Source of the DNA: Rhizobium sp. NLR16a | GTDB taxonomy: Bacteria > Pseudomonadota > Alphaproteobacteria > Rhizobiales > Rhizobiaceae | Assembly: GCF_017948245.1 (NCBI RefSeq) | Contig: NZ_CP072865.1 | Span: forward strand, 2,753,501 to 2,817,500 | DNA: 64,000 nucleotides | Direction: 5' to 3' | Part shown: one piece after another, positions 35,340 to 64,000 of the stretch | How the letters are laid out: every line of letters begins with the position of its first letter | Position numbering within the stretch: the first letter of the stretch is position 1 | Program-made: the position numbers and the translations under genes | The notes under the pieces: generated by a model | Database searches by the model: none | The model's input: only the letters and a program-made list of their open reading frames with translations | What the model was told of the DNA's origin: nothing

Positions 35340-35507
35340 ATCGGCACGGTTTGCCGGAAAGAATGCAGAATCGCCGCTTTACCTTGAACCTTCGGCCTTT
35401 CTTTCCTAAATTGCCCGGCATCGACCATTTCAACAGGATGTGTGCCGCAATGGATCTCAACCCGATCGCAATGCCAGTTCGCCTTGCCAACGGGGAAATC
35501 CATATCC

Positions 35508-37100
<1,593 letters not shown>

Positions 37101-37190
37101 GTGATTTAAGCGGGCAGCAGTGCTCTCCGCCAGCGGCACCTTCCATTCCCTACCCCCGCTTATTGAGAGCGCGGCCTCCTCCAACCTCCC

Positions 37191-37219
37191 TTGCCTCCTT
37201 TTGTCGGCAATGGTATTTC
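37191..37219 (+). promoter_or_regulatory. Candidate promoter of the ABC-F leader transcript
   Basis: TTGCCT (37191-37196), 17-base spacer, TATTTC (37214-37219). A start near 37226 would give a 30-base leader before the small ORF and about 265 bases before the ABC-F start codon. Confidence 0.45.
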
Positions 37220-37255
37220 CATCCTGCAACCCTTTCGAGAAAGGAGGATCACGCT

Positions 37256-37327
37256 ATGCAGTATTATTTCCGGCATCATCGCCAGCGTGGTCCAGTCAAC
37301 GCCCTGCAAATGCGTTTGCAGGGCTGA
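37256..37327 (+). CDS. 23-residue leader peptide upstream of the ABC-F gene
   Basis: ATG at 37256 to TGA at 37325-37327, product MQYYFRHHRQRGPVNALQ plus MRLQG. It is preceded by AAAGGAGGATCACGCT, the best Shine-Dalgarno site in the neighbourhood and far better than that of the ABC-F gene itself. The 3' end of the ORF is one arm of a perfect 10-bp hairpin (37301-37324). Strong translation, small size, aromatic then basic composition, and position before an ABC-F gene all fit a regulatory leader peptide whose stalling or completion is sensed. Confidence 0.7.
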   Translation: MQYYFRHHRQRGPVNALQMRLQG

Positions 37328-37480
37328 CCAGAGACGCTTTCACTCTCTTCCTGGTCTGCCCTTCGTGGCCGATGCGCCGCCGTCGGATGACTGCGCGCAT
37401 TCCTCTCATTCCCGGGCCCGCAAGACGCAATCCGTGATGGCCTGACGCCACCGATTGCGCCTGCCCCCGGTCAGGACCAG
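37288..37480 (+). promoter_or_regulatory. Alternating RNA stems: candidate attenuator of the ABC-F gene
   Basis: Stem 1: GCCCTGCAAA (37301-37310) with TTTGCAGGGC (37315-37324), extended by TGGTC (37288-37292) pairing GACCA (37326-37330). Stem 2: GACCAG (37326-37331) with CTGGTC (37351-37356), exclusive with the stem 1 extension. Stem 3: the same CTGGTC with a second GACCAG at 37475-37480, ten bases before the ABC-F ATG and part of its only ribosome-site-like sequence. The nine bases GACCAGAGA occur at both sites. Another stem, GCAATC/GATTGC (37427-37432, 37453-37458), lies between. There is no T-run, so control is probably at translation or through Rho. Confidence 0.6.
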
Positions 37481-37489
37481 AGAACGAAC

Positions 37490-39010
37490 ATGACCCTCAT
37501 CAATATCCGCAATCTCGGCGTGACGCTCGCCAATCGGCTATTTTCCAACCTCAATCTCGTCGTCAATGCAGGCGACCGCATCGGTCTCGTCGCCGCCAAC
37601 GGCCGCGGGAAATCCACCCTGCTTGCCTGCATCAACGGCGCGTTGGAGCCGAGCGCGGGCGAGATCACCAAGGCGCGCGGGCTGACGATCGGCCATGTCG
37701 CGCAGAATGCGCCGACCGCCCTTTTCGACACGCCGTTCCATGATGCGGTGCTGCAGGCGCTGCCGGCCGATCAGGCCGAAAGCGAGAGCTGGCGCGTCGA
37801 TGTCGTGCTGGAATCGCTGGAGGTGCCGGAAGTCATGCGCAGCCGGCCGCTGAAGCAATTGAGCGGCGGCTGGCAGCGGCTGGCGATGCTTGCGCGCAGC
37901 TGGGTCAGCGAGCCCGACGTGCTGCTGCTCGACGAACCGACCAACCATCTCGACCTCGAAAAGATCGCGCAGCTGGAAAGCTGGCTGAATGCGCTGCCGC
38001 GCGAGGTGCCAGTCATCCTCTCCAGCCACGACCGCGCCTTTCTCGATGCGACGACGAACAGGACGCTGTTCCTGCGGCCGGAGCAATCGCCGGTCTTCGC
38101 GCTCCCCTATAGCAGAGCACGCGCCGCCCTCGACAAGATCGACGCTTCCGAGGCGCGGCGTTACGAGCGCGACATGAAGGCGGCCGAGCAATTACGCAAG
38201 CAGGCGGCCAAGCTCAACAATATTGGCATCAATTCCGGCAGCGACCTGCTGGTCGTCAAGACGAAGCAGCTGAAGCAGCGGGCGGAGAAGCTGGAGGACG
38301 CGGCAAAACCGGCCCATCTCGAGCGCTCGGCCGGCGCCATCCGGCTTTCCAACCGCGGCACGCATGCCAAGGTGCTGATGACGTTGGACGACGCGGCGGT
38401 GACGACGCCGGACGGGACGCTGCTGTTCAAGACCGGCCGCCAATTCATCTGCCAGGGAGACCGCATCGTGCTCCTCGGCCTCAACGGCGCCGGCAAATCA
38501 CGGCTGGTGTCGATGCTGAAACAAGCGATCGACAGACCCGAGGCCGGGCAGAATGGAATCAAGGCGACGCCGTCGCTGGTTCTCGGCTATGGCGATCAGG
38601 CGCTGGCCGATCTTGCCAACAAGGATACGCCGATCGGCACGATCATCCGCCGCTTCGATGTCGGCGACCAGCGGGCGCGGGCACTGCTCGCCGGAGCCGG
38701 CATGACGATCGACATGCAGTCAAAGCCGATCGGCCAGCTTTCCGGCGGCCAGAAGGCGCGGCTCGGCATGCTGGTGCTCAGGCTGACGGAGCCGAATTTC
38801 TATCTGCTCGACGAGCCCACCAACCATCTCGATATCGAGGGACAGGAAGCGCTGGAAAACGAGCTGATGGCGCATGAAGCGAGTTGTCTGCTGGTCTCGC
38901 ACGACCGCAGCTTCGTGCGGGCGGTTGGAAACCGCTTCTGGTTGATCGAGAAGAAGCGGCTGGTGGAGGTGGAGAGCCCGGAGGGTTTTTTTGCTTCTGT
39001 GGCAGTGTGA
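37490..39010 (+). CDS. ABC-F family ATPase (second), attenuator-controlled
   Basis: 506 residues, two soluble ATPase domains. First P-loop is AANGRGKSTLL (family usually GxNGxGKST), signature LSGGWQRLAML, Walker B LLLDEPTNHLDL. The linker (~205-270) is charged and helical. Second P-loop is GLNGAGKSRLV, with Arg replacing the usual Thr/Ser after GKS; signature LSGGQKARLGML; LLDEPTNHLDIEG. The role is ribosome binding, and antibiotic protection is possible. The ribosome site is poor (CAGAGAACGAAC), in contrast with the strong leader ORF upstream, which suggests inducible translation. Confidence 0.87.
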   Translation: MTLINIRNLGVTLANRLFSNLNLVVNAGDRIGLVAANGRGKSTLLACINGALEPSAGEITKARGLTIGHVAQNAPTALFDTPFHDAVLQALPADQAESESWRVDVVLESLEVPEVMRSRPLKQLSGGWQRLAMLARSWVSEPDVLLLDEPTNHLDLEKIAQLESWLNALPREVPVILSSHDRAFLDATTNRTLFLRPEQSPVFALPYSRARAALDKIDASEARRYERDMKAAEQLRKQAAKLNNIGINSGSDLLVVKTKQLKQRAEKLEDAAKPAHLERSAGAIRLSNRGTHAKVLMTLDDAAVTTPDGTLLFKTGRQFICQGDRIVLLGLNGAGKSRLVSMLKQAIDRPEAGQNGIKATPSLVLGYGDQALADLANKDTPIGTIIRRFDVGDQRARALLAGAGMTIDMQSKPIGQLSGGQKARLGMLVLRLTEPNFYLLDEPTNHLDIEGQEALENELMAHEASCLLVSHDRSFVRAVGNRFWLIEKKRLVEVESPEGFFASVAV

Positions 39011-39058: not shown

Positions 39059-39197
39059 GCCCCTCAGCCTAGCCTCTCTCCGTTCTGACGGGGAGAGGGG
39101 ACGTGCCATAAGAGAGGTCGCGTGAAACGGAGAGCTTGCGGCATGTCCCTTCTCCCCGTCAGAACGGGGAGAAGGTGGCGGCAGCCGGATGAGGGGC
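39059..39197. repeat. Palindromic intergenic repeat, copy B
   Basis: Ends are GCCCCTCAG (39059-39067) and GATGAGGGGC (39188-39197). Two internal hairpins: CTCTCtCCG-ttctga-CGGGGAGAG and CTTCTCCCC-gtcagaac-GGGGAGAAG. In reverse complement it lines up end to end with copy C, so the element has been inserted in opposite orientations. No coding capacity. Confidence 0.8.
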
Positions 39198-63723: not shown

Positions 63724-64000
63724 GTCGCACAACTCGTCAGATGCCGCAGAGCATGCGTCAAACATCCAGACCGCATGCTTTGTTCCGGTCATGGCCGACA
63801 AGCTGAAACCCGTAGCTGTGGAGAAGAGACCTGCGTGCTTGGCCCGTGCGAATGGACCCCGCCCCGCAAAAGGCTATCGCCCGGCCGGAGCCACCGAGCG
63901 TGAAGACCGTTGAAATATCGAGGGCGCGGTGATAATTCCTGCATCGGGTCTGCAGTTCACCCAGGCATCGCCGTTCTCCGGAACACGCTAAACCTGACAA

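Follow-up and report, generated by a model that had tools for sequence, protein, structure and literature searches.

A conserved leader with an ermC-like layout, apparently a translational attenuator, upstream of an ABC-F gene in Rhizobium and other Alphaproteobacteria

The leader and the ABC-F gene in Rhizobium sp. NLR16a

The region considered here lies upstream of an ABC-F ATPase gene of Rhizobium sp. NLR16a (assembly GCF_017948245.1, contig NZ_CP072865.1, positions 2,753,501 to 2,817,500), within a stretch of 64,000 nucleotides that was analysed as a whole and is called the window. The gene, located at 37490..39010 on the forward strand as are all the leader features described below, encodes a protein of 506 aa with two ABC_tran stretches and is presumed to be the regulated gene. 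It is preceded by a leader carrying a short open reading frame (ORF) and RNA segments that can pair in alternative ways. An earlier interpretation of the letters alone, hereafter the sequence-only reading, had proposed that this leader is a translational attenuator comparable to those of ABC-F genes from Firmicutes. The evidence presented below makes such control probable, with a layout nearer that of ermC.

A likely promoter, TTGCCT-N17-TATTTC (37191..37219), is found 36 bases 5' of the leader ATG; it is proposed from by-eye similarity, the promoter-like stretch looking alike in many of 38 same-genus loci. A scan with an E. coli-type consensus found no promoter. The Shine-Dalgarno (SD) sequence of the leader, GAGAAAGGAGG (37237..37247), is assigned from direct reading and from the same-genus alignment. 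It contains AAAGGAGG (37240-37247), a very strong ribosome site that occurs 4 times in the window where 1.4 are expected, a count reached by 8/100 shuffles. The leader ORF (37256..37327) has 23 codons followed by a UGA stop (37325-37327), and its peptide is MQYYFRHHRQRGPVNALQMRLQG. The core of this peptide, R-G-P-V-N-A-L (37286..37306), is the predicted zone of ribosome stalling and corresponds to the modelled switch window.

Four RNA segments can be distinguished. Segment 1, GCCCUGCAAA (37301..37310), is the 5' arm of hairpin H1, and segment 2 (37315..37331) consists of the 3' arm of H1, UUUGCAGGGC, running into U-GACCAG. H1 is a perfect 10 bp hairpin (37301-37310/37315-37324) with a UGCG loop, at the end of the leader ORF. 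GACCAG (37326-37331) lies at the leader stop and CUGGUC (37351-37356) about 20 bases further 3', within segment 3, CUGGUCUGCCC (37351..37361), a possible partner of either segment 2 or segment 4. Segment 4, GGUCAGGACCAGAGA (37469..37483), is directly 5' of the ABC-F start and includes a second GACCAGAGA copy (37475-37483), the ABC-F ATG being at 37490. On direct reading, the sequence-only reading had placed the ORF, the ribosome site, the hairpin, GACCAG, CUGGUC and the second copy correctly, and both the 23-codon ORF with its very strong ribosome site and the perfect hairpin are confirmed. It had overlooked that GGGC (37321-37324, in H1) is also complementary to GCCC (37358-37361) beyond CUGGUC. 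Because of this additional pairing, H1 and the GACCAG stem compete.

Taken alone, the single features of the leader are unremarkable. The local fold of 93 nt has a z of -1.5, with 12/200 shuffles as good, and the fold of 291 nt a z of -3.4, with 0/200 shuffles as good. Conservation among relatives settles that the arrangement is real, and a chance origin is thereby ruled out.

Distribution and linkage to the ABC-F gene

A DNA search of 100 relatives recovered the leader in 59/60 same-genus genomes (that of the window included; G024 is without it), plus one short stretch elsewhere. The 59 same-genus loci (L001-L059) are alignable across the full leader. A covariance model built from same-genus loci (R1) matched 68/297 family genomes, in 29/106 genera. 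With a second model (R2), matches were obtained in 35/249 genomes of an order sample (25 from other families) and in 17/387 genomes of a class sample (15 from other genera). The exact hairpin pattern was found at no fewer than 118 loci in named genomes; among the matches listed, the genera are Rhizobium, Mesorhizobium, Ensifer, Agrobacterium, Bradyrhizobium, Bosea, Aminobacter, Shinella, Phyllobacterium, Pleomorphomonas, Roseomonas, Sulfitobacter, Yoonia and Nisaea. Orders with the leader besides that of the window are, again among the matches listed, Acetobacterales, Rhodospirillales and Rhodobacterales. The spread of the leader in Alphaproteobacteria is wide but patchy. The element also occurs on the pSymA plasmids of S. 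meliloti M162 and M270 (L270, L272), so that strains of one species may differ in whether they carry it. In M162 the gene is annotated simply as an ABC-F family ATPase and the PLSDB table, itself incomplete, lists no leader feature; the M270 record carries no annotation.

An orthologue of the ABC-F gene (E<=1e-100) is present in 65/297 family genomes and 26/106 genera, and 65/65 of these genomes carry the leader element. Three matches of the element are without an orthologue, two weak ones (G103, G322) and one in G145. Using tblastn, the ABC-F gene was found downstream in 58/60 family loci, with partial or broken matches in L071 and L104. Among the pattern matches listed, it lies at most 700 bases downstream in 117/118 loci; the sequence of L136 ends 113 bases past the hairpin. 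The gene follows in 28/32 of the class and order loci; among the 12 class-sample loci fetched, it is downstream in 9 and absent in 3 weak ones. The leader element is therefore tied to one ABC-F gene by near-perfect linkage. In G145, a leader-like stretch (L118 and L267, the same place) precedes other ORFs, with no ABC-F match in about 6 kb downstream, and is possibly a remnant. In L269, an insertion of more than 1 kb separates the leader from the ABC-F gene.

This near-perfect linkage, together with the complementarity of the leader to the start region of the same gene (see below), disfavours the idea that the leader RNA or its peptide works in trans, in the manner of rnTrpL/peTrpL of S. meliloti, the association with ABC-F being secondary. 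Trans-acting products of this kind do exist in Rhizobiaceae (PMC10117765), and for the present leader such an action appears most improbable.

Alternative RNA helices

The loci were collected by model or by pattern and are related by descent, so that the counts given here and below do not represent independent events. Twelve of 269 loci were left unparsed: seven whose examined sequence contains no ABC-F match (L118, L119, L136, L247, L248, L249, L267), three with an ABC-F match not beginning near the protein start (L102, L117, L252), the one with the insertion between leader and gene (L269), and L032, in which a C-A mismatch in H1 is presumably the cause. The parser demanded GCCC or GCCT, then GGGC, and six contiguous pairs, and this demand partly accounts for the invariance of the four outer pairs of H1. 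The 257 parsed loci, in which some genomes appear twice, were reduced to 106 representatives at a core identity cut of 86%. Alignment A5 comprises 100 of the 269 loci in 104 rows (101 distinct, 4 antisense hairpin matches) and was fitted to the structure of the model.

In A5, hairpin H1 and stem H2 show 97.0% pairing, and 10 of their 16 pairs have double changes. Double-change cells number 60 in H1/H2, against 19.6 in shuffles (0/500) and 3-17 in slid versions. For instance, GCCCUG:CAGGGC is replaced by GCCCCG:CGGGGC in L242-L245 and L262, with an additional change in L246; other compensations include C-G to U-A in L111 and L253, and the closing A-U becoming G-C or C-G. H1 and H2 covary across genera. 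The sequence-only reading had itself named beforehand a lack of conservation among relatives as what would speak against it; leader codons and stems are kept. It may be mentioned that in L216 the leader ORF is frameshifted and the RNA stems are intact.

The extended helix formed by segments 2 and 3 (GGGC-U-GACCAG with CUGGUC-U-GCCC) is 95.8% paired in the alignment and displays 24 double-change cells versus 13.3 in shuffles (0/500). Since this helix uses GGGC of H1, hairpin 1:2 and helix 2:3 are mutually exclusive. Segment 3 was located by its complementarity to segment 2, and 2:3 energies are therefore no independent test. In the sequence-only reading, GACCAG had two alternative partners. The downstream one, CUGGUC, is borne out, with full pairing in 57/59 same-genus loci, whereas the upstream one (37288-37292) is fully paired in only 20/59 and was rejected. 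Instead, CGUGGUCC (37286-37293), within the R-G-P codons, may pair with GGAUCACG (37246..37253), which overlaps the leader SD, in a stem called H0. In the aligned loci, 85.5% of the H0 cells are paired, with 28 double-change cells versus 12.6 in shuffles; pairs with a double change number 3, not above shuffles (3.2), and p<=0.05 is obtained in 46/101. Through H0, a ribosome on R-G-P would hold the leader start open, a role that is a guess.

Pairing of segment 3 with the ABC-F start region was compared with 100 dinucleotide shuffles for each representative, and the 3:4 duplex reaches p<=0.05 in 69/106 loci. In 75/91 loci it is better than any window of the spacer in between, and it ends at a median distance of 3 nt from the start codon (106 loci). 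Segment 3 is thus complementary to the ABC-F start region beyond what chance would give. The same site of segment 3 is used by 3:4 and 2:3 in 96/106 loci. AGACC occurs within the start region in 59/106 loci, and in some loci (L116 and L117, L211, L242) a change of the motif is, by eye, accompanied by a change of the partner.

The leader peptide and the modelled switch

The leader ORF measures about 20-24 codons across loci, and an SD-like motif, defined by a permissive pattern, precedes an in-frame start in 101/106 representatives. With peptide positions counted backwards from the Ala codon at the base of H1, the Gly of the core is found in 101/104 loci, encoded by 3 synonymous codons (variation of 0.03/0.01/0.28 at codon positions 1/2/3), and the Pro in 103/105 loci, encoded by 4 synonymous codons (0.00/0.02/0.48). 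That Gly-Pro is kept while third codon positions vary looks like selection on the peptide, namely on the Gly-Pro of a G-P-x-x-A-L core. The two residues after G-P are more variable, with V in 66/105 at the first. The residue preceding Gly is R in 63, F in 17 and H in 13 of 104 loci, and an R is present three codons before Gly in 79/104. Ala-Leu and the residues after it are dictated largely by the hairpin, and several lineages stop right after Ala-Leu or inside the loop.

The effect of a ribosome on the leader was modelled by an equilibrium calculation in which each of the 106 leaders was folded while a stretch the size of a ribosome was kept single-stranded, codon after codon. In this model, 1:2 and 3:4 are favoured in the free RNA, with the ribosome on early codons and at the stop codon. 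Mean 3:4 pairing, 8.65 in the free RNA, falls to 3.1-4.2 when one of the G-P-x-x-A-L codons (Gly to Leu) occupies the P site; it is at least 6.6 elsewhere and 9.6 at the stop. Conversely, mean 2:3 pairing rises from 1.55 in the free RNA to 7.1-8.5 with the P site on the same codons. The 2:3 helix exceeds 3:4 in 18/106 loci in the free RNA, in 70-81 with the P site on Gly to Leu, in 41 one codon to either side and in 2 at the stop. For the window, 2:3 pairing would increase to 11.7 (from 2.49) and 3:4 pairing drop to 0.01 (from 7.48) upon placing Gly in the P site. Changing the footprint size moves the flip zone by about one codon. The flip zone being the Gly to Leu codons, the most conserved residues of the leader sit at its upstream edge.

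Several observations weigh against the switch outlined above. Concerning the RNA, H1 and H2 are free of double changes within the genus, and 4 pairs of the extended 2:3 helix have one, a number reached by 26/500 shuffles. An arm-swap test does not favour the own pair of 2:3 (mean rank 0.47, p 0.35), segments 2 and 3 varying little. For 3:4, the duplex of the window itself is not significant versus shuffles (p 0.11). Swap tests are mixed: the own 3:4 partner is favoured only moderately by the arm-swap test (mean rank 0.38, p 3.5e-5; the median swap is beaten in 67/106), and a simpler score applied to loci without GACCAG prefers it in 26/49, that is, gives no signal. Furthermore, segment 4 resembles segment 2 at 8/11 bases or more in only 33/106 loci and beats the best spacer window in 44/94, so that segment 4 as a general copy of segment 2 was rejected. 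In the model, Gly in the P site falls outside the flip zone with the shortest footprint (+12), mean accessibility of the start region goes from 0.34 to 0.39 only (with any rise in 78/106), and loci such as L021, L109 and L227 stay mostly 3:4 despite the stall. Finally, Agrobacterium loci have retained the leader RNA and lost G-P. In L154, L155 and L235, the first two named Agrobacterium, the core reads RQLCHLFAL, with no Gly-Pro, and these loci offer a natural test of the purpose of the peptide.

Comparison with known leaders

In ermC, four segments form 1:2 and 3:4 in the OFF state and 2:3 upon a stall in the leader, segment 4 being at the start of the regulated gene. The present leader resembles the ermC/ermCL system of Firmicutes by its leader ORF with a strong SD, its four segments and the position of segment 4. 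A short leader ORF has its own ribosome site (101/106 representatives), alternative stems exist (1:2 and 2:3 covary, 3:4 beats shuffles in 69/106 and swap tests are mixed), and segment 4 lies over the start of the regulated gene (median 3 nt to the start codon). It differs by an unlike peptide, by its occurrence in several alphaproteobacterial orders, and by the nature of the regulated gene, which is an ABC-F ATPase and not an Erm methylase. The leader would presumably work like that of ermC without being an erm leader. The ermCL leader is depicted in a figure legend of PMC10219788.

Like vmlR, msrD and cplR, the gene studied here is an ABC-F gene controlled, as proposed, by an upstream open reading frame (uORF). 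Those three genes use an intrinsic terminator, cplR being also subject to translational attenuation (PMC10314930, PMC9226507, PMC10201436), and in the vmlR and cplR leaders a stem hides the ABC-F SD (PMC9226507, PMC10201436). The peptides of those leaders are MYLIFM for MsrDL, MIN for VmlR, MK[L/Q] for VmlR2 and MR[I/M] for CplR, unlike the G-P-x-x-A-L core. The use of transcription attenuation by the studied Firmicutes leaders raises the possibility that this leader too sets premature termination, intrinsic or Rho-dependent, before ABC-F. A suspected Rho mechanism is also described for a uORF controlling a DUF1127 gene in Sinorhizobium meliloti (PMC12218461). However, a scan of the window found 0 intrinsic-terminator-like sites at 37090-37520, a region that includes the interval between uORF and gene, and what competes with segment 2 in a conserved manner is the ABC-F start region, an arrangement for which a pure terminator would have no need. 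Transcription attenuation is thus an unlikely explanation. The Firmicutes analogy put forward by the sequence-only reading holds for the logic of the control, the layout being nearer that of ermC. As for the duf1127-1 attenuator of S. meliloti, it shares with the present leader a uORF sensing translation inhibition and the bacterial family, but acts by transcription attenuation, with a C-rich element and on an unrelated gene (PMC12218461).

The R-G-P of the core resembles the first three residues of the RAPP/RQH arrest peptides, such as SecM and ApdP of Alphaproteobacteria, which also exert uORF control of a downstream gene. This raises the question of an internal signal acting through the same switch: the peptide would be a weak RAPP-like self-stalling peptide, the ABC-F protein a general stall-clearing factor, and the control a homeostatic autoregulation rather than a response conferring drug resistance. 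R/H-G-P agrees with positions one to three of the arrest motif (R/Q/H)-(A/G/D)-(P/G/S)-(P/G). Ribosomes halted by that motif hold its third residue in the P site (PMC10987492), a position that falls within the modelled window for each of the four footprints used. The presence of the leader in 59/60 same-genus genomes is consistent with such a role, as is the score of the ABC-F protein against NCBIfam NF000355 (ribosomal-protection ABC-F), 291.5 bits, under the curated cut-off of 380. On the other hand, the arrest motif is incomplete, with R or H at its first position in 76/104 loci, G-P kept, and at the fourth position V in 66/105 and mostly not P or G; nor does the leader precede a sec/yidC gene. 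For many RAPP-like uORFs, the site of action is close to the C-terminus and a localisation signal is present (PMC12992588); none is apparent in the 23-residue peptide, for which no dedicated test was made. Moreover, the gene is patchy across genera (26/106) and the element is found on some S. meliloti pSymA plasmids; a patchy distribution is regarded as a mark of resistance ABC-Fs (PMC6723617). An internal signal is therefore conceivable and rather unlikely.

By the NF000355 cut-off, the protein is not assigned to the antibiotic-resistance (ARE) ABC-Fs. Its hidden Markov model scores to the Sal, Vga, YheS, Uup, YbiT and Msr families are near one another and its best solved relatives are likewise close together, so that neither picks out a single antibiotic class. 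No known RNA family accounts for the leader: Rfam gave no gathering-level match in it, none at 37150-37560 with E up to 1, and none at gathering level in 6 relatives.

Neighbouring features

A second, different ABC-F gene is located directly 5' of the locus (35442-37100). A gene similar to it (>55% identity) lies beside the leader locus in at least 24/262 loci, a lower bound since most loci extend less than 2 kb upstream. A shared operon of the two ABC-F genes was tentatively rejected. In two relatives, the promoter-proximal 52-54 bases are duplicated about 1.0 kb 5' of the leader (G005:C58:286630-286683, G023:C1:1388824-1388875). On the 3' side of the ABC-F gene, an inverted repeat of ccttctccccgtcagaacggggagaagg type is seen by eye at 39080-39175. 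The Rfam COG3860 RNA motif (64.5 bits) is found at 63946-63999, at the very end of the window.

Proposed mechanism and significance

Conservation, covariation and linkage to the gene support the translational attenuator that the sequence-only reading had envisaged for an alphaproteobacterial ABC-F gene, and it is quite likely that an attenuator of ermC layout controls this ribosome-associated ATPase. We infer translation of the leader, stalling, the direction of control, the inducer and the feedback. Without stress, the leader would be translated to its stop and hairpin 1:2 would form using GGGC; segment 3 would then bind segment 4 and cover the bases before the ABC-F start (OFF). A ribosome halted on the G-P-x-x-A-L codons would cover segment 1 and free GGGC, whereupon segment 2 would bind segment 3 and release segment 4 (ON). 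The inducer may be a ribosome-targeting antibiotic or another condition halting ribosomes at the leader peptide. The ABC-F protein would clear the halt, thereby switching its own gene off.

It can be tentatively proposed that this leader is an old alphaproteobacterial stall sensor, in which a new G-P-x-x-A-L arrest core and a purely translational four-segment switch would be coupled to a dedicated ABC-F rescue factor clearing the stall, with an origin independent from the mobile Gram-positive resistance leaders. Literature searches, which covered the main texts of open-access papers, found no description of the leader; it is real and apparently a not yet described version of a type of regulation that is itself known.

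In the literature found, leader-controlled ABC-F genes are Gram-positive and mostly regulated via transcription termination. Here, the same class of proteins seems to be controlled at the level of translation, in Gram-negative symbionts and soil bacteria, and natural variants are numerous enough for the leader mechanism to be read from sequence. The stall zone is predicted to within a few codons, and an uncharacterised group of ABC-F proteins is indicated. The core may represent a new arrest motif, triggered perhaps by a natural antibiotic or by a translation problem of internal origin. If the proposed control is true, the leader would provide a ready-made reporter of ribosome stress in Alphaproteobacteria.

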